From Thermoproteota archaeon (GTDB taxonomy: Archaea > Korarchaeota > Korarchaeia > Korarchaeales > Korarchaeaceae): a stretch of 38,932 nt of DNA. The position numbers were made by a program, and so were the translations under genes. The stretch spans positions 1 to 38,932 of the forward strand of contig JARZZM010000059.1 in assembly GCA_030130125.1 (NCBI GenBank), written 5' to 3'. Position 1 is the stretch's first letter, and every line of letters starts with the position of its first letter. Under the pieces are notes generated by a model. It worked only from the letters and a program-made list of their open reading frames with translations, was not told where the DNA came from and ran no database searches. Of this stretch, positions 27,981-38,932 are shown piece by piece.

Positions 27981-28352
27981 CGCCCTATTAGCGGTGATTG
28001 GGTGAGGGAATTAAAAAAGCAGATGGAGGGTACGGACATGTCTATGGGGAGGAGATCCTTGAGCTGGCTGATTTCAAATTACTAAGGGGGGGAATTACTT
28101 TTCACGAGGGTCCTCGGGGATAGATGGGTTTATGGATTTTAAGATCCGAGATTCTATTATCGCTGATATAAGGGTCTCTTTAGGTTATCTGAGGTCAGGA
28201 AACTTGTCATGACATGAGCTGCTAATTCTGATGGCGAGTTCTGGTTGAGAATGAGCTAAGTTAAGTGAGTTTGCTAACTCAGCCGTGGCTGTAGTTTTTG
28301 ATTTATTAGTTAGAAGCGCTTGGGAAATCCCTCATGTTGGAGAATAGAGTGA
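27981..28352. other. 372-base gap without a recognisable gene
   Basis: No coding frame of useful length is visible on either strand. The left end holds the flippase promoter (TATA-like near 28008-28016). A perfect 10-base palindrome TGTCATGACA lies at 28205-28214 and a weak GAGTT/AACTC stem at about 28267-28280. I see no tRNA-like fold. It may be the untranslated end of the upstream glycosyltransferase transcript or the remains of a lost gene. Confidence 0.5.
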
Positions 28353-29462
28353 CTACTGCTTCCTCTCAGCTATTTCCCGCACAATACTCTCGAACTCTAA
28401 AGCGCTCCTATCCCAATTGAATTGCCTCGCCCAAGAGAGGGCATTTCTACTCAGTTCTTCTCTTAACTCCTCGTCTACGAGGACTCTCTCTAGCACCCTC
28501 GCCATGGCCTCCGGTTTAGGCGAAACTAGAAAACCATTATATCCATGCTTGATTGAGTCCCTCAGGCCCTTGATATCGTACCCGATGGCTGGTGTCCCGA
28601 GAGCGTTGGCATCCGTGATAACCTGTCCCCATCCCTCCCTGACACCTGGAACCAAGATGACCCAAGATCTCCTCACCAAGAGATCCTTCTCTCTAGAGGG
28701 AAGATAGCCGAAGAATTTCACGATTCTTCCATATCTCCTCTCTAAATCCCTCCTCAAGTATCCTTCGCCCACCATCCATAGACGAATGTCTTTTAATCTC
28801 CTTCTTACTATTAGAAAGGCCTTGATAGCGTCTTCTGGTTTTTTCGCCCTCTTCATCCTACCCACATAAATCACAGTAGGAAAATCGCTCTTCTTTGGGA
28901 CGCTATCTAGGGGATCGACGTTTACTCCATTAAGTACGATTCTGATATCCCTGAATCCCAGATTCCTTAGGTCTTCCTCGGTGGATCTTGATACTGTGAT
29001 CGTTGTGACTCCCCTGTATCTCCTCAACCACCACCTCTCTAGGAAGGCATAGCCTATGACTGCCAGAGGTAGGGGGGTTTCATAAAACCAGAATTCCCTA
29101 GCCAGTTGGTGTATAAGGGCCAGCGTTCTACTCTCCCCTACCCTTTTAACCACCATGAAGGGCCTAGTGTTTATCTCATCTACTATAACGTCGTACTCCC
29201 CGTGATGTCTTTCACAGAACTTTTTAGCCTCTTTGAACACAGAGAGCCCCTTGCCACGCCTAATGATCTCAACTCCATCTATCCTCTCCAGCTCAGAACC
29301 TCCGCTGAAATTGGATGTAAAGAGAGTCACCTCGATCCCTCGTCTAACGAGCCTCTTAGCTATGTTATGGGTATAAATCTCAGCTCCTCCCGACTCCGGG
29401 TTCCTTAAATCTCTCCAATTAAACCAGAGTACTCTAACAACTCCTGATCCGATTCTCCCGAT
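28353..29462 (-). CDS. GT4-family glycosyltransferase with a non-standard start
   Basis: A retaining GT-B glycosyltransferase of family 4. The first standard start in frame is GTG 29330 (325 residues), but the conserved N-terminus clearly continues upstream: the frame reads VLWFNWRDLRNPESGGAE and then YTHNIAKRLVRRGIEVTLFTS, the typical donor-side Gly-Gly loop and first helix. This coding extends at least to 29435, overlapping the end of the preceding gene, yet no ATG, GTG or TTG occurs before the TAG at 29505-29507. The listed start is ATC 29460-29462, which follows GGAGGTGGT; this is provisional. The C-terminal domain is normal: YVGRMKRAKKPEDAI, VPGVREGWGQVITDANALGTP (the E-x7-E-like motif) and GYNGFLV. 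It would add a sugar to a lipid-linked glycan at the inner face of the membrane. Confidence 0.75.
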   Translation of the reverse strand: MGRIGSGVVRVLWFNWRDLRNPESGGAEIYTHNIAKRLVRRGIEVTLFTSNFSGGSELERIDGVEIIRRGKGLSVFKEAKKFCERHHGEYDVIVDEINTRPFMVVKRVGESRTLALIHQLAREFWFYETPLPLAVIGYAFLERWWLRRYRGVTTITVSRSTEEDLRNLGFRDIRIVLNGVNVDPLDSVPKKSDFPTVIYVGRMKRAKKPEDAIKAFLIVRRRLKDIRLWMVGEGYLRRDLERRYGRIVKFFGYLPSREKDLLVRRSWVILVPGVREGWGQVITDANALGTPAIGYDIKGLRDSIKHGYNGFLVSPKPEAMARVLERVLVDEELREELSRNALSWARQFNWDRSALEFESIVREIAERKQ

Positions 29463-30244
29463 CGGGAGACCACCTCCCTCTGGACAATCGAACGCGTTAT
29501 TCTCCTAGTGCGGAGGGATATGGATAGCTTGATCAAAGATATGAGCATAGATAAGATAGTCGTCAGAGTCACAGTGCTTTTGCTGGAGTAGTTCACTATA
29601 ACAGGGACCTCTATCACCCTGAATCCCGCCTTGTGAGCTATAGCGAGCATCTCAGAATCGCTCACGAAACCTGCATCAGTTACTAAGGGGAGTATGTCAT
29701 TTAGCACATATTTCTTAAATATCTTCATTCCAGTTTGGGTATCGCTATAAGGAATCCCCAAAAAGATCCTAGCTAGTGCGGAGAATACTCGGCTAGCCAA
29801 ATATCTGATACGTGAGGGATAGGTGACAACGGAATCTGCATGTCTCTTAGAACCTATGACAACATCTGCTCTACTTTCCGAAAGAACTCTGAGGTATAAT
29901 GGGATCATTGATGGATCTATATCCCCATCAGCGTCTAAGAACATTATTATCTTGCCACGGGATTCCATGAATCCCCTTCTTAAGGCATACCCCTTTCCCA
30001 TGTTAGAGGTTAATCTTACAGCAATCAACTGTGGAAGGACACGTTGCAGGGCCAGTACTACCCCCCATGTGTGATCGTCGCTGCCGTCATCAACTACTAT
30101 AATCTCCCAATCGTTAGTTATATCACTCAATATCGCCGCAAGCTTTTCGATCGTATTTTTGATAGAGAACTCCTCGTTATAAGCCGGGATTATTACAGAG
30201 ATTTCAATGAACCCGGAGCTTGATCCCTTCACCATGGCTCCCAT
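29405..30244 (-). CDS. GT2-family glycosyltransferase, dolichol-phosphate sugar synthase type
   Basis: A 279-residue GT-A enzyme of family 2. Motifs are EISVIIPAYNEE near residues 14-25, IIVVDDGSDDHTW, NMGKGYALRRGF, MFLDADGDIDPSMI with the metal-binding DAD, and DTQTGMKIFKK, the pattern of dolichol-phosphate mannose/glucose synthases. The C-terminal part has a hydrophobic stretch (LSMLISLIKLSISL) for membrane contact. It probably makes a polyprenyl-phosphate sugar used as donor on the outer face. ATG 30244 has GGAGGAT 8 bases upstream. The 3' end overlaps the N-terminal coding region of the GT4 gene by about 50 bases. Confidence 0.9.
   Translation of the reverse strand: MGAMVKGSSSGFIEISVIIPAYNEEFSIKNTIEKLAAILSDITNDWEIIVVDDGSDDHTWGVVLALQRVLPQLIAVRLTSNMGKGYALRRGFMESRGKIIMFLDADGDIDPSMIPLYLRVLSESRADVVIGSKRHADSVVTYPSRIRYLASRVFSALARIFLGIPYSDTQTGMKIFKKYVLNDILPLVTDAGFVSDSEMLAIAHKAGFRVIEVPVIVNYSSKSTVTLTTILSMLISLIKLSISLRTRRITRSIVQREVVSRSGESDQELLEYSGLIGEI
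29454..29469. repeat. 16-base perfect palindrome at the GT2/GT4 junction
   Basis: TCTCCCGATCGGGAGA is identical to its reverse complement. It lies in the coding end of the GT2 gene and covers the putative ATC start of the GT4 gene. About one such palindrome is expected by chance in a window this size, so its position is the only notable aspect. Confidence 0.6.
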
Positions 30245-30405
30245 CTAGCTAAATCCTCCATTAACATTTAAATTTCCATACAGAGCCTCCTTGAGAGCAC
30301 AATATCATATGATGATTTGCCTATTTTATCTACATTTTTTTATCCTCTTACGTTGATTTGCAATATTGGTCTGCTAAAGCCAAGATGTATTTGGATCCTC
30401 GTAAT

Positions 30406-31188
30406 TTAGTGATAGTACCATGATGAACTGATTAGGAGAAGTAGAAGAATTATAAAAGACAGCAAGAAGATAAGTGCGCTTATCTCTCTGAGGGATGACA
30501 GTCCGAATTGCGAGAAGATAACTAGATAAGAGAGCAATGCGGCCACTATGAAGGGTTTGGACTTTTCCATCATTCTGCGAATCGTATTTATCGAGGTAAG
30601 AGTGATTAATCCGATTATCGCCGAGATCAGGAGAATTAAAATAGTTTGAGGGAGTGTCCACCTGCCTTTTTTGACTATAATACAATTCTCTGTGCTAATC
30701 AAATTAATTTCCTCTGGATAATTACTATCCCTTAATATATTTCCTACTATCTCTAGATTTGAGGGCATTCTTTCCATATTATCGTTGATGTCTATATAGA
30801 GGACTGACTTCCTTGGGTCACCAAAAATGGCGAACTCAATGGATTTAACTTTAATTAATCCAGAGAGATTTAATTCGGTCCATGTGAAGTTTCCACTCGC
30901 TATGATAACTAGGACTCTACCCTCATTTGTCTTCGCTACACCATATAATGCGTCGATTTCAACACCAGCTACCCTTAGGTATGGATGTGCTTCCCCGATC
31001 CAATCTCCGTAGATGATTAAACTGCCACTAGTTCCATTCATTAGCCTGACGACCAGCACTCCATTAGCTGTCTCAAATGAGAGGTTCTGGGGTACTACCT
31101 CAAGCTTAGGGGGGAGACATTCTACGAGAGTTAGGGGCAGGGGGGTGATAATAGCAATGAAAAAGATAACGAGGTGTCTAGCGAGCAT
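30406..31188 (-). CDS. secreted/membrane protein of unknown function
   Basis: I do not recognise a family. The 260-residue product has an N-terminal signal sequence (residues about 4-22, LVIFFIAIITPLPLTLVEC), an extracytoplasmic domain of about 150 residues rich in beta-type sequence (LSFETANGVLVVRLMNGTSG, with several N-glycosylation-type sequons such as NGT, NFT and NLS), and three C-terminal membrane helices (about 180-200, 210-228 and 235-255). The layout resembles small archaeal surface or sensor proteins. It starts at ATG 31188, divergent from the GT2 gene at 31262. Codon use is A+T-rich like the rest of the glycan cluster. The position suggests a role in the cell envelope; nothing more can be said. 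Confidence 0.6.
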   Translation of the reverse strand: MLARHLVIFFIAIITPLPLTLVECLPPKLEVVPQNLSFETANGVLVVRLMNGTSGSLIIYGDWIGEAHPYLRVAGVEIDALYGVAKTNEGRVLVIIASGNFTWTELNLSGLIKVKSIEFAIFGDPRKSVLYIDINDNMERMPSNLEIVGNILRDSNYPEEINLISTENCIIVKKGRWTLPQTILILLISAIIGLITLTSINTIRRMMEKSKPFIVAALLSYLVIFSQFGLSSLREISALIFLLSFIILLLLLISSSWYYH

Positions 31189-31261
31189 ATCTTGCTAGAT
31201 AGGATTAAATCAGATAAAAATATAATTCTTCCGAAGATGGGTAATATCGGAGGGAATCCTT

Positions 31262-32185
31262 CTGCCATCTGAAACCCAACTGAAACCTTTAGTTTCAGTG
31301 GTTATACCAACTAAGAACTCCAGTAGGACCCTAGACGTATGCTTGAAGTCTGTCCTAAATCAGACTTACCCAAATCTAGAAATAATAGTCGTTGACAACT
31401 TTAGCGAGGATGGAACCATTAAGATAGCCGAGAAGTACGGGGCTATTGTAATTAAAGCATCCTCAGAGAGGTCTGCTGCTAAGAATATAGGGCTAAGGAG
31501 GGCGAGAGGTGAGTACATAATTTTTATAGACTCGGACATGGAGCTCAGCCCCACTTTAATAGAAGAATGCGTGGAGGTAGCCCAGTCCTCTCCCAACTTT
31601 GGGGGAGCTATTATACCAGAGAGGTCTGTAGGAAGTTCTTGGTGGGTTACCGTCAGGAATTTCGAGAGATCATTCTACTCAGGCACTCAAATTGAGTCAG
31701 CCAGGTTCTTTAGGCGTGATCTAGCCCTGATGGTAGGTGGTTTCGATGAGGATCTGGTATTTTTCGAGGAGGCCACTCTCCCTAGCAAGCTGAGGATGGC
31801 AGGATATAACGTCGATTACAGGGTGGGCAGCTTTATTTACCACCATGAGGAGGACTTCTCTCTAATAAGGTGGCTCAAGAAGAAATACTACTATGGCAAG
31901 ACTCTAGCGCTTTACTTGGATAGATATGGGGAGTACACGGCGGATGATCAGTTAAACCCGTTGAGAAGGGTCTCAATATTCCTTAGAAATAGGAGGTTCT
32001 ACTCTCACCCAGGGTTGGCTATGGGGGTCCTTATCCTCAAGCTGATGGAGTTTATATCCGTTCTAGCGGGTCACATAAATGGAGAGGTTATACCTAGTCT
32101 TCTGAGTGATCTGAGCAGGAAGGTGAGGAAACTCGCTAATAGAGTGAGTAGGGAGAGAGTCAATCCCAGTAGAAACCACTCATAA
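31262..32185 (+). CDS. GT2-family glycosyltransferase, possible CTG start
   Basis: A family 2 glycosyltransferase: VSVVIPTKNSSRTL, QTYPNLEIIVVDNFSEDGT, RSAAKNIGLRRARGEYIIFI followed by DSD (metal-binding) and GGFDEDLVFFEEATLPSKL, where the catalytic base is expected. The C-terminus has one weak hydrophobic segment (about residues 265-285). The first standard start is GTG 31298, but this would begin inside the first beta strand. The frame stays open upstream, and a CTG at 31262 has GGAGGG at 31249-31254 with a 7-base spacer, giving a normal N-terminus (307 residues). No other start candidate exists. The last 115 bases overlap the convergent giant membrane protein gene. It probably extends an exported glycan. 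Confidence 0.8.
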   Translation: MPSETQLKPLVSVVIPTKNSSRTLDVCLKSVLNQTYPNLEIIVVDNFSEDGTIKIAEKYGAIVIKASSERSAAKNIGLRRARGEYIIFIDSDMELSPTLIEECVEVAQSSPNFGGAIIPERSVGSSWWVTVRNFERSFYSGTQIESARFFRRDLALMVGGFDEDLVFFEEATLPSKLRMAGYNVDYRVGSFIYHHEEDFSLIRWLKKKYYYGKTLALYLDRYGEYTADDQLNPLRRVSIFLRNRRFYSHPGLAMGVLILKLMEFISVLAGHINGEVIPSLLSDLSRKVRKLANRVSRERVNPSRNHS

Positions 32186-35100
32186 GGCTTATAAACGATA
32201 TCTATCCTGAGATCCCCCCTTTCATCGATCCAGAAACCATTTATCATGTTATTCACCATTATTGGTGGGACCTCCTTAGTATAGCTGTCAGAGTATACCC
32301 TCGCAGTCCAAAGTGGATCATACTGCTTTGCTAGGATGAGTAAAAAAGGCCCGCTTGAGTTGACCCTGACCCTCCACTCTATCGGAGATATCCTCCTGAA
32401 AGTGATGTTAAGGGGAGGGGGGAATAAGTCCTCTCTTCTCTTCATCTTACCTTCATCAGTCGAGTAGATCCAAATATCATCCAAGCAAGAGGTCCTATAG
32501 CCAATTACTCTAAAATCCTTCAACTCCATGACATTAGGTAAGGGATATGGCGTCATGAAACCATACCATATTTCTAAGCTTAAATACCTAACCGAAGAAT
32601 CGCTCACTTTGTGTTCAACTTTGATCTCTTTCCAGTCGAAAGAGCCATCTCCTATCCATCCCTTATAATACATCCGAACGATCTTACCGTCCGATCCGTA
32701 CTCCGATATCTTGAGGTGAATGGCCGATCCGTTTATAGATCTTATCTTGAATGAGAATCTATAGATCAGAGATCTGTTGACCTGTATTAAGGGAGACTTC
32801 AGGGTCTTCCAGCCCCAAGTAGAACCATGAAGTGAAACCACCAGATTGCCCTTCTCATCCACTGAGTAGCTTATATTCGCTCCAAACTGTCTATTAAAGT
32901 TCCTGTCGAGCCAAGCAGTGAGGTCTTCTCTCCGCCTGAAGTTCCAAGACTTCTCGTAGTATGTTGATTTGAAGAGGACCTTTAAAGTATGGTTTCCTTC
33001 CTCTAGCTTAATAGGACCTATGTACTTAGGTGAGATGCTTTGGGACGAGAGGAAGAATTGCATATCATCTATCCACACAGAGAAGGCTCCTCTAATGCCC
33101 AATGAGAGGATATAATCGCCAGTTGTGGGGACTTTGAGGTCTGTCCAAGCCATTCCTCCTGGGAGTAACAGGAGACACTCGCCGTTACTAGCGTTCCCGT
33201 CATTCATGATCAGTCCACCATTGAAATGAAGGGAACCCTCCGCCTCGATTGGAAGGAGTATTGAACTCTCTTCTGCATCAGATAGTATCTTCCCTAACGT
33301 CTCGTATATAGTTATGGGGACTAGAGCTATCTCACTTACCGCATTAAACCCATCTAAAGCCTGCATTTCTATAAGATAATCCCCAGGTCTCAGCTGAAAG
33401 CTTCCTATCTTGATCCATCTGAACTTATTGGTGTCGTCTTGCGTTTTCAAATTGAAGGTCCTTCCGTTGAAGGAGATCCTGAGGGCGCCTCCCACCTTGC
33501 TTACAAATGCCTTTACCAAGAGGATGTAGTTTCCATCCTCCCTTACTCTCAAAGGGACTCTCAGGATATTCGGCACGGTGAATCTCCTCAGGTCGTAGAT
33601 TCTGATGTCATCTATCCTATAACAGGAGCTTGAGCTCTCATTCTGTCTGATCCAGAACTGGACTTTCACATACCTAGTTCTCTGAGGAGTGAGTACGTTT
33701 ACTGAGAACTCCCTCCAATCGAAGGTTCCTGATCTACCGAGGAAGAGGTAATCTAAACCGAGATAGCTCTTGTTCTCATCGTAGTAATAGATCTTGCCAT
33801 GGAGACCAACTACGTCCCTTCCCTCGACCCATGCTCTCACTTGATACCATCGGTTCGGCTCTACTCTGAGGTAATCAGTGGAAATTATCTTCCAAGGGAT
33901 CCCTTTACCGCGGGAAACCGTGACCAGTAGGCTCCATTTACCGTGCTTAGCAGTGGGGGAGAGGTGGATGGACAGGATATCGGGGTGTTTGACCTCTATC
34001 TTCAACGGTCTTTCGAAATCGATCCTATGGACTATATCTTGCTCGCTAACCTGCGGATCATCGGTGAGCAGTGTGTAGGGGGTCCAAGTGAAAACAACTG
34101 AGTAATCAGAGCTCCAACTTTTCACACCTAACTTATCAATGTAAACGAAAAAGTTATTGAGCCAGCCTCCACCGAACATTCCAGTAGACCAGAAGTTCTT
34201 GGGTCTATGATGATCCGATCTAGGATAGATGAGCAGTACCTTAGGGAGCTTGGGAGGTCCATTAGTGATGATCACCATGTCCTCGAAGTAGGGATAGACG
34301 GTATACCCATTCAGCTTTAAGCCCATCGATGTATCAAGGTAGGTAGAGTAGGCTATCTTGCTTAGGGCATAAATGACAGGCCTTGCCCCTCTAATCTCGT
34401 ATAAGGAGAAATTTCCCTCCTCCGATAATGGATTGAAGAAGGGGGAACGTCTCAGAAAATCTTTTGATTTTTCTACTAGTTTCCTCCCATTTTCTTCTAG
34501 AGCATCGCTTCTTAAAACCAGATACCTAACGGAAAGTCCCTCTAGAATGGATGAAATATCACCAGCCGCGCTTGTATTGAATAGATGGTTAAGAAAGCCC
34601 CCATTCGATTCTCCTATTTCCCTAAAAGAGTTAAGGGAGCTTATGCTCATTTGGGGGATATCAGAATATGTGAGATGATATCCAGTCATAGGAAGAAAGA
34701 ATATTTCGTAGTCTTTCGCCTCTGGCATCGCCTTCACGAGATTCAATGTATCGTTTAGATCCGAGGGGAAGGGATGGAGGTATCTCTCGAAATGGCCATT
34801 GAGATTTCCCGTCATTGCAGGCCATCCGAGGAAGACTATAGATGCTATCATAAGGAGGAATATGGATATTGTTAGGCTCTTACTTCTCCCTCCCCCTCGG
34901 TCAAGATGCCCCCTGCTATGGGACAGGGATCCCGCTAGCAGAGCGTATAGGAAGTTAGCAGCGATGACACTCAAACCGGTGTTCTTGTAAGGATCCCTTA
35001 TTACCCATCCCAGCGGGAACTCCATGAAAAAGGCCTTATACAGATCACCTATGAGGGGATACTTGCTTCCCGTAGATAAGACAGTGCCTATAACCCATAA

Positions 35101-36117
35101 AGTGGAAAAATAAGCGGCATAGCTTGTTTGCTCTCTGTGCCTCCTAACGAAAGAGAAGTACGTTCCAAGGCTTAAAACCAAGACAAGCAGGCTTAAGAGA
35201 CTGAGTGGTTCCCATAGATCCATCCTCATGAAGAGTATGGAGTAGTCTGGGTTAGCTGGCTCGCCCCAAAGCCAGCTTCCTGAGTAACGGAATGCATTAG
35301 TAAGGGAAGCTCTCCTAGAGAGGAGCTCAACGTTCTCTATAACTTTACCATAGCTCTGGAACCCTGTAGGACCTGAAACACCGTAAAATACCGTGAGGAT
35401 CTGTGGAAGGAGTGACCAGCTATCGAGCAAAACCGCGGTGAGAAAACCTAAGAAAATTCTCCAGTCAATGATCCAAGAGATTATTTCCCTTCCGGAAAAC
35501 TTCGCCTGTATGAGGAGATAAAGTCCCAGCATCAGTCCAGCATATATGATCAGCGATTGGACCTGCGTTGATATGAGAGCTATAAGAACCGATAGTCTAG
35601 CGATGCTCCCGAAACTAGGCCCGGAAGGGGACTTAAGTATCTTGTCAATTTCAGAGAGGAGCATATAGGACGATGCTAGAGCTAATACGAGCCAATAGTG
35701 ATGAGCTACCTTATTCGTTGTCCAAGGATTGTAGATGAAGAACAAAACCCCTAGCGCTGATGAGACGCCGTATTTGTACTCCCTCAATCCAGGGAGGGCT
35801 TTTTCCAAAAAATATTTATTAGAGAAGTAAATAATTAGGGAACTAATATATAAAATTGCGACATTAAATAGGATCTCTGATGATACATCATCCAATACAG
35901 TACTAAATAACATTATGAAGAGGAGGAGGGGTATCTTCGGGGCATGAATGAATATTTTATTCAAGTGATGCTGAAGATGCTCGTGAACTGAGAGAGCATA
36001 CCTATTGTCGCCCATAATTAAGATCTTATGAGACATGAGAGGATTAAGAAAATAGACTACTGAAGGGATGGCTAGAACAGCAGCTATGGCTAGATTCATT
36101 ATAAGTGCTCTATTCAT
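32071..36117 (-). CDS. giant GT-C-like membrane protein with carbohydrate-binding-like domains
   Basis: About 1348 residues. The first 450 contain roughly eleven to twelve membrane helices; the first external loop carries MGDNRYALSVHEH, with acidic residues placed as in GT-C glycosyltransferases that use polyprenyl-phosphate sugars. A long external part follows. Residues about 690-840 and 1055-1205 look like two related jelly-roll carbohydrate-binding modules: both have a W(Y/F)-rich core, SGTFDWREFSV / DGSFDWKEIKV and a closing IDDIRIYDL / ELKDFRVIGY. A final membrane helix is near 1315-1340. Function is inferred as surface glycan assembly or a sugar-transferring envelope protein. ATG 36117 overlaps the methyltransferase stop by 8 bases. 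Its 3' end overlaps a convergent gene by 115 bases. Confidence 0.7.
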   Translation of the reverse strand: MNRALIMNLAIAAVLAIPSVVYFLNPLMSHKILIMGDNRYALSVHEHLQHHLNKIFIHAPKIPLLLFIMLFSTVLDDVSSEILFNVAILYISSLIIYFSNKYFLEKALPGLREYKYGVSSALGVLFFIYNPWTTNKVAHHYWLVLALASSYMLLSEIDKILKSPSGPSFGSIARLSVLIALISTQVQSLIIYAGLMLGLYLLIQAKFSGREIISWIIDWRIFLGFLTAVLLDSWSLLPQILTVFYGVSGPTGFQSYGKVIENVELLSRRASLTNAFRYSGSWLWGEPANPDYSILFMRMDLWEPLSLLSLLVLVLSLGTYFSFVRRHREQTSYAAYFSTLWVIGTVLSTGSKYPLIGDLYKAFFMEFPLGWVIRDPYKNTGLSVIAANFLYALLAGSLSHSRGHLDRGGGRSKSLTISIFLLMIASIVFLGWPAMTGNLNGHFERYLHPFPSDLNDTLNLVKAMPEAKDYEIFFLPMTGYHLTYSDIPQMSISSLNSFREIGESNGGFLNHLFNTSAAGDISSILEGLSVRYLVLRSDALEENGRKLVEKSKDFLRRSPFFNPLSEEGNFSLYEIRGARPVIYALSKIAYSTYLDTSMGLKLNGYTVYPYFEDMVIITNGPPKLPKVLLIYPRSDHHRPKNFWSTGMFGGGWLNNFFVYIDKLGVKSWSSDYSVVFTWTPYTLLTDDPQVSEQDIVHRIDFERPLKIEVKHPDILSIHLSPTAKHGKWSLLVTVSRGKGIPWKIISTDYLRVEPNRWYQVRAWVEGRDVVGLHGKIYYYDENKSYLGLDYLFLGRSGTFDWREFSVNVLTPQRTRYVKVQFWIRQNESSSSCYRIDDIRIYDLRRFTVPNILRVPLRVREDGNYILLVKAFVSKVGGALRISFNGRTFNLKTQDDTNKFRWIKIGSFQLRPGDYLIEMQALDGFNAVSEIALVPITIYETLGKILSDAEESSILLPIEAEGSLHFNGGLIMNDGNASNGECLLLLPGGMAWTDLKVPTTGDYILSLGIRGAFSVWIDDMQFFLSSQSISPKYIGPIKLEEGNHTLKVLFKSTYYEKSWNFRRREDLTAWLDRNFNRQFGANISYSVDEKGNLVVSLHGSTWGWKTLKSPLIQVNRSLIYRFSFKIRSINGSAIHLKISEYGSDGKIVRMYYKGWIGDGSFDWKEIKVEHKVSDSSVRYLSLEIWYGFMTPYPLPNVMELKDFRVIGYRTSCLDDIWIYSTDEGKMKRREDLFPPPLNITFRRISPIEWRVRVNSSGPFLLILAKQYDPLWTARVYSDSYTKEVPPIMVNNMINGFWIDERGDLRIDIVYKPYEWFLLGLTLSLLTLLASFLTFLLRSLRRLGITSPFM

Positions 36118-36802
36118 CGATCTTCTCAGCAAGAAGATAAAGCCTCCCCTTTACATGATGGTAGTACCAGCCCAGAAGATATCTAATAGGCTCGCCGATG
36201 GTTAGAATTGGGGTGATGCTAAGTGATGATAACGATTTGAAGTATGAAACTATATCGGATGGTATGTACTTCGACTTAACCTTGAAGCATGAGTCCTCCA
36301 GCAGATCCTTCCAAAATCTTAAGGGTCTAACGTTGATATGGGTGAGATCATATAGCCACCTGCTGGCCTTGCAAGGATTAGCCGTTGTTAGTATGAGGTA
36401 GCCACTAGGTCTCATTATCCTACATATCTCAGATATAGCCTGAAATATATCTCTGGGATGCACGTGCTCAACGACATCTATTGCTGAGACCACATGAAAC
36501 TCAGAATCAATGAAAGGGATCTTTAGAATGGATGCCTCGACTATACGGGATTTAACCTTGGTTGGAGCCATCTCTATGGCCGCCCTCGAGATCTCTATTC
36601 CATAGGCATCTATTCCCAGATCTAAGAGCTCCTTGATCATGCTTCCTGTCCCACATCCGATGTCCAACCATTTAACACTTTCAGGCGATTTTAGCGCTCC
36701 TAATTTATGTAAGATGAACTTTGCCATGTGCTTTTTTGGATAAGCTTTCATATCACGATAATATTCTTCGTTGTAATCGAGCTTAAATTTCCTACTAGGC
36801 AT
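36110..36802 (-). CDS. SAM-dependent methyltransferase (Methyltransf_11 type)
   Basis: A 230-residue class I methyltransferase. Motif I is VKWLDIGCGTGSMIKEL near residues 45-60, the acidic end of strand two is in YGIEIS, motif II-like VVSAIDVVEHVHP follows, and motif III is IMRPSGYLILTTANP. The C-terminal part lacks further known domains. In this setting it could methylate a sugar or lipid carrier in glycan synthesis. ATG 36802 is preferred over GTG 36811 because GGTGAT lies 4 bases upstream; it overlaps the stop of the upstream glycosyltransferase by 8 bases, so the three genes 32071-37922 are translationally coupled. Confidence 0.88.
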   Translation of the reverse strand: MPSRKFKLDYNEEYYRDMKAYPKKHMAKFILHKLGALKSPESVKWLDIGCGTGSMIKELLDLGIDAYGIEISRAAIEMAPTKVKSRIVEASILKIPFIDSEFHVVSAIDVVEHVHPRDIFQAISEICRIMRPSGYLILTTANPCKASRWLYDLTHINVRPLRFWKDLLEDSCFKVKSKYIPSDIVSYFKSLSSLSITPILTIGEPIRYLLGWYYHHVKGRLYLLAEKIDE

Positions 36803-37922
36803 GTCGATCACCTAAGCGGTTGATTATGCTCAGCATTTCATTCATATGGCTGCTCAGGTTATATCGCCTAGTTACCTCCCAACACTTCATTCCCAAGCTA
36901 AGGGGATCACCTCTCATTATCTCGTTTATTCTCTCAACCCACATACTAGTGCTGTGTTTAGGAAGGCATAAGCTCTCTCTTAGGTCGAAGGGCATCAACT
37001 CGCATACACCCGATGTGTCTGCCACTAATACGGGGGTCCCCACGGACATTGACTCCATAGCACTCATATTGAAGTTCTCGTGTCCCGGGTAAACGAATAG
37101 GTTAGCGTTTTTCAGCAGATTAGTGACTTCTCTATCAGAGGGAGAGAGCACTACCCTTACCTCCCTCCCTCTCTTGATTAGATCTCTATAGAGCTCCAGT
37201 ATTCTTCGAAAATTAGGATTCATTTTATTACCATAGCCAGCTATTACGATTTTCCACTTGACTAATCTTGCTATTTTAGCGAGATTTATGAATGCTTCAT
37301 GGTCAATCCTCCCCAAGATGATTATGTAGCCCTCCCTCTCGGTCCTAATCTCTCTCCTGTCGAGTGGGACATTCACAGTGGGATAGAGAACTCTGACCTT
37401 CGAGAGGATACCGCGGCAATGAATCTGTTTTAATTTGTTGAGTGAGGATATGCTGTTAACAAGAACCATATCAATCCGCTTGAGTATATCCTTCTCTGCT
37501 CTCATCATTAGAGCCTTATTACTAGAGAGTATATAGCCTAGGATAGATCCTGTAAGCGAGTATGAATGGGGATCATGGAGGTAGAGTATCTTAATTGATC
37601 GTGTAAGGGCCTTATGTCTCCTTATGATGATTGCGGAGGGTAGATTATGGAGGATCAGATACCTATAACGGTCTAACAAGTTCATCCGCTGGAATGGGAG
37701 TATTCCATGGAAAATCCTTCCGAAGATTTCGTCGCCAAAAAAATATAGTGGTTTGATTCCCCTTTCCTCGAATAAGGGCCATTCGTCTCTGCTCCTAACG
37801 ATAGAGGCTATGGACGCGTTGAAGCCCTCCCTTCTCAACATCTCGGTCTCGGAAATAGCTACCCTTGCCACCCCACCTGGCTGAGTAGAATGAATTATCG
37901 ACAGGATCGAGGCATGGTCCAC
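36795..37922 (-). CDS. GT4-family glycosyltransferase
   Basis: A 375-residue GT-B glycosyltransferase. The N-terminal STQPGGVARVAISETEMLRREG contains the Gly-Gly loop and first helix. Mid-protein KILYLHDPHSYSLTG and VNSISSLNKLK match the acceptor domain end, and the C-terminal domain has IIILGRIDHEAF, VLSPSDREVTNLLKNANLFVYPG and NFNMSAMESMSVGTPVL, where the donor-binding glutamates (E-x7-E) are expected; here the first Glu is HEN and the second MES. The start GTG 37922 lies 28 bases inside the previous gene's end and has only a weak ribosome binding site. Nucleotide-sugar donor and acceptor are unknown. Confidence 0.87.
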   Translation of the reverse strand: MDHASILSIIHSTQPGGVARVAISETEMLRREGFNASIASIVRSRDEWPLFEERGIKPLYFFGDEIFGRIFHGILPFQRMNLLDRYRYLILHNLPSAIIIRRHKALTRSIKILYLHDPHSYSLTGSILGYILSSNKALMMRAEKDILKRIDMVLVNSISSLNKLKQIHCRGILSKVRVLYPTVNVPLDRREIRTEREGYIIILGRIDHEAFINLAKIARLVKWKIVIAGYGNKMNPNFRRILELYRDLIKRGREVRVVLSPSDREVTNLLKNANLFVYPGHENFNMSAMESMSVGTPVLVADTSGVCELMPFDLRESLCLPKHSTSMWVERINEIMRGDPLSLGMKCWEVTRRYNLSSHMNEMLSIINRLGDRHA

Positions 37923-38932
37923 ACGCTTTCACGTACTTTACTTTTTAAAAAGGGTACCAGCCAGTCCTCGTTATAGGGTAACCATCTGAATAGAACGTAC
38001 CTCAATCTCCTGTAAATAGTTAACATCCAATCTAGGATTTCGATAGGCTTTTTTCTAGGAATTAGATCAAGTGGTAGAAAATAGATGGGAGACACTAAGG
38101 ATTCGATCCTCAAGGGGGGGGCTGACTCCAACCCCTCCACCTTGTCCCTGAGATCTATATCCCACATTAAGAGACCTTTAGCCACCACATAACGGAGGAT
38201 ATTCCTGACAGCTGGATGTTTAACGGTCCCTAAGCGTTTCACTTTGCTCAATAATCTCAGCATGATGAGGAAATCCCCCAAGGTAACATAATGGTGTTGA
38301 AAAGCTGAGTGGCCTGCGATGATCAAGAGTTCTCTCTCAGGACTGGGCATCAGAACTGGCTCATCAAAGATCCTAGATTCTACCGCATCTCGCCATACTT
38401 CAAGAGAATCTAGGGCTCTATTACCTGACCAAGATATCTCGTAATGGAGATCGACGGGAACTAGCTCCTCTGAAAGGAAAGTCCTAGCGCTATGAAATCT
38501 ATGTCTCTTCTCGATCATTCCAAGATCTCTTAGGGACTTTCTTACCATATCAAAATCTTCGGGCTTAACTAACACATCTACATCAGTAGGTACGCCTATT
38601 TCATCAGAAGACGTCTTGAAGATGATGAAATCGACGTTCAGAGTTTCTTTGAGGAGCTGGATGGTCCTTCTAATTCTACCCATCATTTCATAGCATATTT
38701 GGAGCCCTATCCTTACGATCTTCTCCATCTCAGGGGGAAGGGAGTCCAAGCGAACGATCCTCTTGAGTAGCGCTAACTCCACTCCATTTCTCGACGCGTC
38801 TCCCAACAAACGGAGCCAATCGATTCCTTCCCATCCGACCGTTACTTCTTCGGAAGGCATTAGGATATATGAAAGCACCCTATCTCCCTGATCAAGTTGT
38901 TCCAATAACTTATCTCTCAGGAGGGAGATAAC
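37895..38932 (-). CDS. nucleotidyltransferase-fold protein (NTP_transf_5 type), 5' end beyond window
   Basis: At least 336 residues from TTG 38905, but the frame stays open to the window edge (VISLLRDK precedes), so the true start may lie outside. The segment FIIFKTSSDEIGVPTDVDVLVKPEDFDMV has the D-x-D pair of the nucleotidyltransferase fold, and VPVDLHYEISW is the typical third acidic strand of the PF14907-type 'uncharacterised nucleotidyltransferase' family. The rest is helical, with a C-terminal basic region. Such proteins often sit in surface polysaccharide clusters, as here; their substrate is not known. The downstream glycosyltransferase overlaps its 3' end by 28 bases. Confidence 0.7.
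   Translation of the reverse strand, partial: VISLLRDKLLEQLDQGDRVLSYILMPSEEVTVGWEGIDWLRLLGDASRNGVELALLKRIVRLDSLPPEMEKIVRIGLQICYEMMGRIRRTIQLLKETLNVDFIIFKTSSDEIGVPTDVDVLVKPEDFDMVRKSLRDLGMIEKRHRFHSARTFLSEELVPVDLHYEISWSGNRALDSLEVWRDAVESRIFDEPVLMPSPERELLIIAGHSAFQHHYVTLGDFLIMLRLLSKVKRLGTVKHPAVRNILRYVVAKGLLMWDIDLRDKVEGLESAPPLRIESLVSPIYFLPLDLIPRKKPIEILDWMLTIYRRLRYVLFRWLPYNEDWLVPFLKSKVRESVWTMPRSCR

Follow-up and report, generated by a model that had tools for sequence, protein, structure and literature searches.

An apparently intact archaeal GT4 glycosyltransferase gene without a standard start codon, and a candidate AUC start behind a Shine-Dalgarno-like site

In the window studied here, by which we mean the whole stretch of 38,932 nucleotides that was analysed, a GT4 glycosyltransferase gene has no ATG, GTG or TTG ahead of its conserved N-terminus, and we tentatively propose that the gene is real and intact and that its translation starts at an AUC codon (29462-29460) led by a Shine-Dalgarno (SD) site, a reading to which we would give somewhat less than an even chance. 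As contig 59, the window belongs to an archaeal draft genome of 1.52 Mb in 66 contigs, 96.05% complete and 3.44% contaminated. The GT4 frame, which lies on the minus strand, runs open for 383 codons, from the TAG that closes it upstream (29507-29505) to the stop at 28355-28353, and translates from that TAG as ENNAFDCPEGGGLPIGRIGSGVVRVLWFNWRDLRNPESGGAEIYTHNIAKRLVRRGIEV and onward to the stop. Reading of the frame bears out the statement of the preliminary description that no standard start precedes GTG 29330, the count of in-frame ATG, GTG and TTG codons between the TAG and this GTG being 0, and VLWFNWRDLRNPESGGAEIYTHNIAKRLVRRGIE lies upstream of the GTG. Two Pfam domains match the frame above their curated cut-offs, PF13439 (from residue 39 of the frame as counted from the TAG) and PF00534, and their presence in one frame with the family positions kept identifies the predicted protein as a GT4 glycosyltransferase whose transferase activity is likewise a prediction. 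The proposed CDS (28353-29462, minus strand) is based on the open frame, the Pfam matches and the alignment with 15 relatives.

We aligned the gene through its N-terminus with 17 homologous GT4 loci of 31-59% identity. In 15 of the 17 an ATG stands directly before the motif [RKN][IV]L; of the other two, L033 has its ATG two codons upstream of this column and L032 has no standard start at the column, with a TTG three codons earlier and a GTG two codons later. Comparison of the junction with relatives had been proposed as a check in the preliminary description, and it places the window codon GTT (29438-29436, minus strand) at the column occupied by ATG in the relatives. The conserved N-terminal part above GTG 29330 comprises about 36 codons (29438-29331), in agreement with the earlier count of some 36 residues of typical GT4 sequence, which both the Pfam match and the alignment of all 17 loci through the N-terminus support, and the 22 codons of the frame above 29438 have no match in the aligned homologous loci. 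The further claim that this N-terminus must be translated is in keeping with its conservation, but translation is something that we infer. A search of the genus, covering its 15 other genomes at E 1e-30, gave no close homologue of the GT4, the phylum being represented by 29 genomes in the collection searched; more distant GT4 relatives start with ATG, and homologues 53-58% identical are present in Thermococcaceae-like genomes.

The gene upstream is a GT2 glycosyltransferase (29405-30244, minus strand; PF00535) which overlaps the GT4, as described earlier, and ends at 29405. A GT2 homologue lies immediately upstream of the GT4 in 13 of the 17 relative loci, with an overlap of the ATGA type in 6 of these 13 pairs, and comparison of the sequences indicates that the overlapping GT2 is a conserved partner of the GT4. 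The pairs of Thermococcaceae and other archaea (L002, L053-L061 and L034) resemble that of the window in order, in adjacency or overlap and in the homology of both proteins, whereas their GT4 genes, unlike that of the window, have an ATG start at the M-[RKN]-[IV]-L column. The end of the GT2 stop in the window lies 57 nt beyond the first base of ATC 29462; the GT2 of L054 reaches 58 nt past the GT4 start.

A Shine-Dalgarno-like GGAGGTG (29477-29471, minus strand) lies upstream of the in-frame ATC at an aligned spacing of 8 nt, while GTT 29438 has no well-spaced SD site, only an AGGAG at the unusual position of -1. Since it is ATC 29462 that the SD site indicates, and not the codon at the ATG column of the relatives, the site supports a non-standard start, which was among the options originally listed. 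Spacing was calibrated on a 209-kb sample of the genome with 193 greedily chosen ORFs of at least 100 aa, taking as the start of each ORF the candidate with the best SD match; a match of at least 5 nt was found in 116 of the 193. After the aligned GGAGGTG the spacings of these 116 ORFs peak at 5-6 (42 ORFs), with 28 at 7-10, and a spacing of 8 counts against the ATC in being off the peak, though it is within the range used by the genome. It also counts against the ATC that the ATG column of the relatives falls at 29438 and not at 29462. The arrangement of GGAGG, ten nucleotides and a start codon occurs as well at the neighbouring GT2 (ATG 30244) and at a 1353-aa ORF (TTG 36132). As a chance null we drew 22-codon segments free of standard starts and stops from ORFs read in their -1 frame, both in this genome and in G009, a same-genus genome in a single contig. 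GGAGGTG followed after 4-10 nt by ATC, ATT, ATA or CTG was present in 8 of 3400 segments, and a looser rule, GGAGG at a distance of 6-12 nt, was satisfied by 121 of 3400 (3.6%), the rule for relating SD site to start having been set after the site had been seen. We consider the argument from the SD site to be useful and not decisive.

Among 47 columns invariant in 15 relatives the GT4 protein of the window keeps 43, the exceptions being E to N, I to V, F to L and V to I; when relatives were left out in turn as controls, L003 kept 47 of 52, L031 47 of 53 and L002 47 of 47 invariant columns. No other lesion was seen in the body. The 3240 single substitutions in the body include 147 that introduce a stop, whereas an ATG or GTG start is destroyed by 7, and random damage would therefore hit the body more often. 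On this comparison the GT4 enzyme looks intact.

As had been noted, the ATC lies inside a perfect palindrome. This 16-bp element, TCTCCCGATCGGGAGA (29454-29469), spans the ATC, and is the longest perfect palindrome in the window and the only one there of at least 16 bp. Its core is found in one place in this genome and in one other among 16 genomes of the genus, for which reason a role as a repeated operator was rejected. It is possible that the palindrome arose by mutation, a near-palindrome having been corrected to a perfect one with a change of the start codon. The predicted fold of 108 nt of RNA, in which GGGAG of the SD region pairs with CUCCC, is somewhat better than those of shuffled sequences (z -2.06; 7 of 200 shuffles at least as good). 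As the GT2 stop at 29405 lies downstream of the ATC, ribosomes translating the GT2 would traverse this structure, and translational coupling of the two genes through its unfolding is possible.

The GC content of the window falls from 0.54-0.58 to 0.44-0.45 at about 28 kb and stays there to the end (28000-38932), and this low-GC part is probably an acquired glycan-assembly island. It holds two GT4 and two GT2 genes, a methyltransferase, a nucleotidyltransferase-like gene and large ORFs without Pfam match, with a flippase-like ORF (weak match) at its edge; eight long ORFs in it are open. The 1353-aa ORF (32071-36132, minus strand), which lacks a Pfam match, has numerous hydrophobic stretches when inspected by eye. 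Scanning the window for Rfam families and tRNAs gave no hits.

The second GT2 of the island, on the plus strand (31298-32185 from its first standard start, GTG 31298), also lacks a standard start upstream of its domain, as judged by frame, motif and domain comparison, and for this gene CTG 31262 is a candidate start that would extend it to 31262-32185. The strand KPLVSVVIPTKN is in frame and GTG 31298 falls inside it, leaving KPLVSVVIPTKN partly above the GTG. Among the 15 GT2 genes found by motif in the loci compared, the longest-ORF start of this gene is three residues before the P of the motif and the next shortest distance is seven. Sequence reading places an SD-like GGAGGGA (31249-31255, plus strand) 6 nt before the CTG. 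Against this, the gene may in truth begin at GTG 31298 and have an N-terminus that is a little short, and an ATG at 31237, out of frame and opening an 11-codon frame, gives room for an indel error. A TATA-like stretch was seen by eye at 31216-31226, upstream of the CTG. Across 37 glycosyltransferase loci retrieved from the genus (34 with PF00535 and 3 with PF13439, leaving out a partial PF00535 match with three stops) only two, this GT2 (L122) and the GT4 (L128), lack a standard start ahead of the domain. The partial match, on contig 19 of the same genome (L126), is a GT2 remnant with three internal stops. A single missing start in a draft genome usually means an error or a gene in decay. That two glycosyltransferases in one island lack a start, each behind an SD site and with eight long island ORFs open, shifts the balance towards near-cognate starts, though not far.

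A general use of near-cognate starts was rejected, since codon counts after GGAGG gave no clear general excess of ATC, and this too we counted against the AUC start. The genome sample contains 33 ORFs with at least 20 open codons before their first standard start, both window genes included, and in the 20 of these that were scanned with Pfam a domain was found above the first standard start in one (L045:352-822, minus strand). This is a truncated archaeal ATPase fragment (PF01637) with an ATG in another frame there, and we counted the occurrence of at least one such frame-damaged fragment elsewhere in the draft against an AUC start. Comparison with a sample of G009 gave homologues for only 21 ORFs (27 in the reverse direction), and the three ORFs flagged each way include an apparent HSP overrun, judged by eye, and the G009 ORF L074:3252-3986 (plus strand), whose match to L042 begins at the upstream stop, 26 codons above the first standard start, possibly through frame damage or a non-standard start. 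The G009 comparison thus neither supports nor excludes a wider use of near-cognate starts. The 16S gene of this genome ends at the contig end, and for the anti-SD we used a pattern that we take to be the 16S tail. This pattern occurs at 11 places in G009, G011 and G001, and 16S-like context was found at none of the eight loci examined (0/8). At four of the eight (L083, L084, L085 and L090) the opposite strand carries the SD site AGGAGGTGATCC followed within 5-7 nt by ATG, so that the full-length SD sequence is used in the genus.

An assembly error or a base from a minority strain is an alternative that we regard as rather unlikely, though still of some weight. The gene would then be an ordinary one with its true start at 29462 (ATG read as ATC), where the SD site would serve the ATG, or at 29438 (GTG read as GTT), where the start would agree with those of the relatives but would have no usable SD site. 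One wrong base is enough in a draft of 66 contigs with 3.44% contamination; however, the eight long ORFs of the island are open, conservation of the GT4 body is good and a second nearby gene has the same defect, and two independent errors at starts with none seen in the bodies are unlikely. A true loss of the start, perhaps when the near-palindrome was corrected to a perfect one, seems less probable again, and would leave the GT4 little translated or not at all, as an early pseudogene in an acquired island. The position of the ATC within the window's one perfect palindrome of 16 bp, the low GC of the island and the presence of gene remnants in the genome (the PF00535 match with three stops and the ATPase fragment) fit such a loss, which is opposed by the lack of any other lesion, by the 43 invariant columns kept of 47 and by the ratio of 147 stop-creating to 7 start-abolishing changes.

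Two further explanations are far less probable than these, and a small remainder of probability goes to readings other than those considered here. The preliminary description had offered frameshifting from the overlapping gene, and a -1 shift taking ribosomes from the GT2 to the GT4 frame somewhere in 29507-29405 would yield a GT2-GT4 fusion. The frames overlap as required, and an SD-like site and a hairpin, which are known stimulators of bacterial -1 shifts, are both present, a feature shared with programmed -1 frameshifting of the dnaX type, where they lie near the frame overlap. Unlike dnaX-type sites, however, the interval 29507-29405 holds no X_XXY_YYZ heptamer in the GT2 frame, and the relatives carry the GT2 and the GT4 as two distinct ORFs, 6 of 13 with an ATGA overlap, so that frameshifting is unsupported and we think it very improbable. 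Further upstream, beyond the TAG bounding the GT4 frame, the GT2 has three slippery heptamers. That the protein simply begins at GTG 29330 and is short is, if anything, more doubtful still: this is the first standard start in frame, but a protein beginning there would lose sequence that the aligned relatives conserve, namely SGGAE and the region of the first strand and helix, along with 20 residues of the PF13439 match. An indel that moved the start from another frame was rejected: the candidates in the GT2 frame near 29473 and 29442, a GTG and a TTG, were inspected by eye and have no usefully spaced SD site.

If translation does begin at the AUC, GGAGGTG would position the 30S subunit there and the initiator Met-tRNA would pair with the near-cognate codon with a mismatch at the third base only, giving a product M-GRIGSGVVRVLWFNW... 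with an N-terminus eight residues longer than in the relatives. Ribosomes from the GT2 would cross the start region and open the small hairpin around the AUC, so that GT4 output would probably be low and tied to GT2 translation. We infer in this that the base is correct, that the AUC is used and that the two genes are coupled. AUU starts are known from infC and pcnB of Escherichia coli, and the GT4 of the window would resemble them in having a near-cognate AUN codon behind an SD site and low expected efficiency, while differing in the codon, AUC instead of AUU and here a proposal, in belonging to an archaeon and in encoding a glycosyltransferase. A 2023 paper cites ATT as ranking seventh among the starts of E. 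coli, at about 0.3% of ATG (PMC10666635). According to a 2021 review, non-canonical translation in archaea had been shown only for elongation and termination (PMC8211752), and no archaeal AUC start appeared among the results of our literature search. A fidelity role against non-AUG complexes is described for Pyrococcus aIF1 (PMC6237735), and we counted this opposition to non-AUG initiation against the AUC start.

A more speculative possibility, which we consider improbable, is that AUC (GT4) and CUG 31262 (GT2), each preceded by a strong SD site, serve the acquired glycan island as starts kept weak on purpose, with the fidelity of aIF1 setting glycosyltransferase output; this, if true, would be initiation outside AUG, GUG and UUG by design in archaea. 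Should a wrong base prove responsible, the case would be a caution about draft genomes. If AUC and CUG truly start archaeal genes, gene finders that admit only ATG, GTG and TTG would truncate or miss such genes, and the strictness of archaeal start selection would become testable on natural sites.
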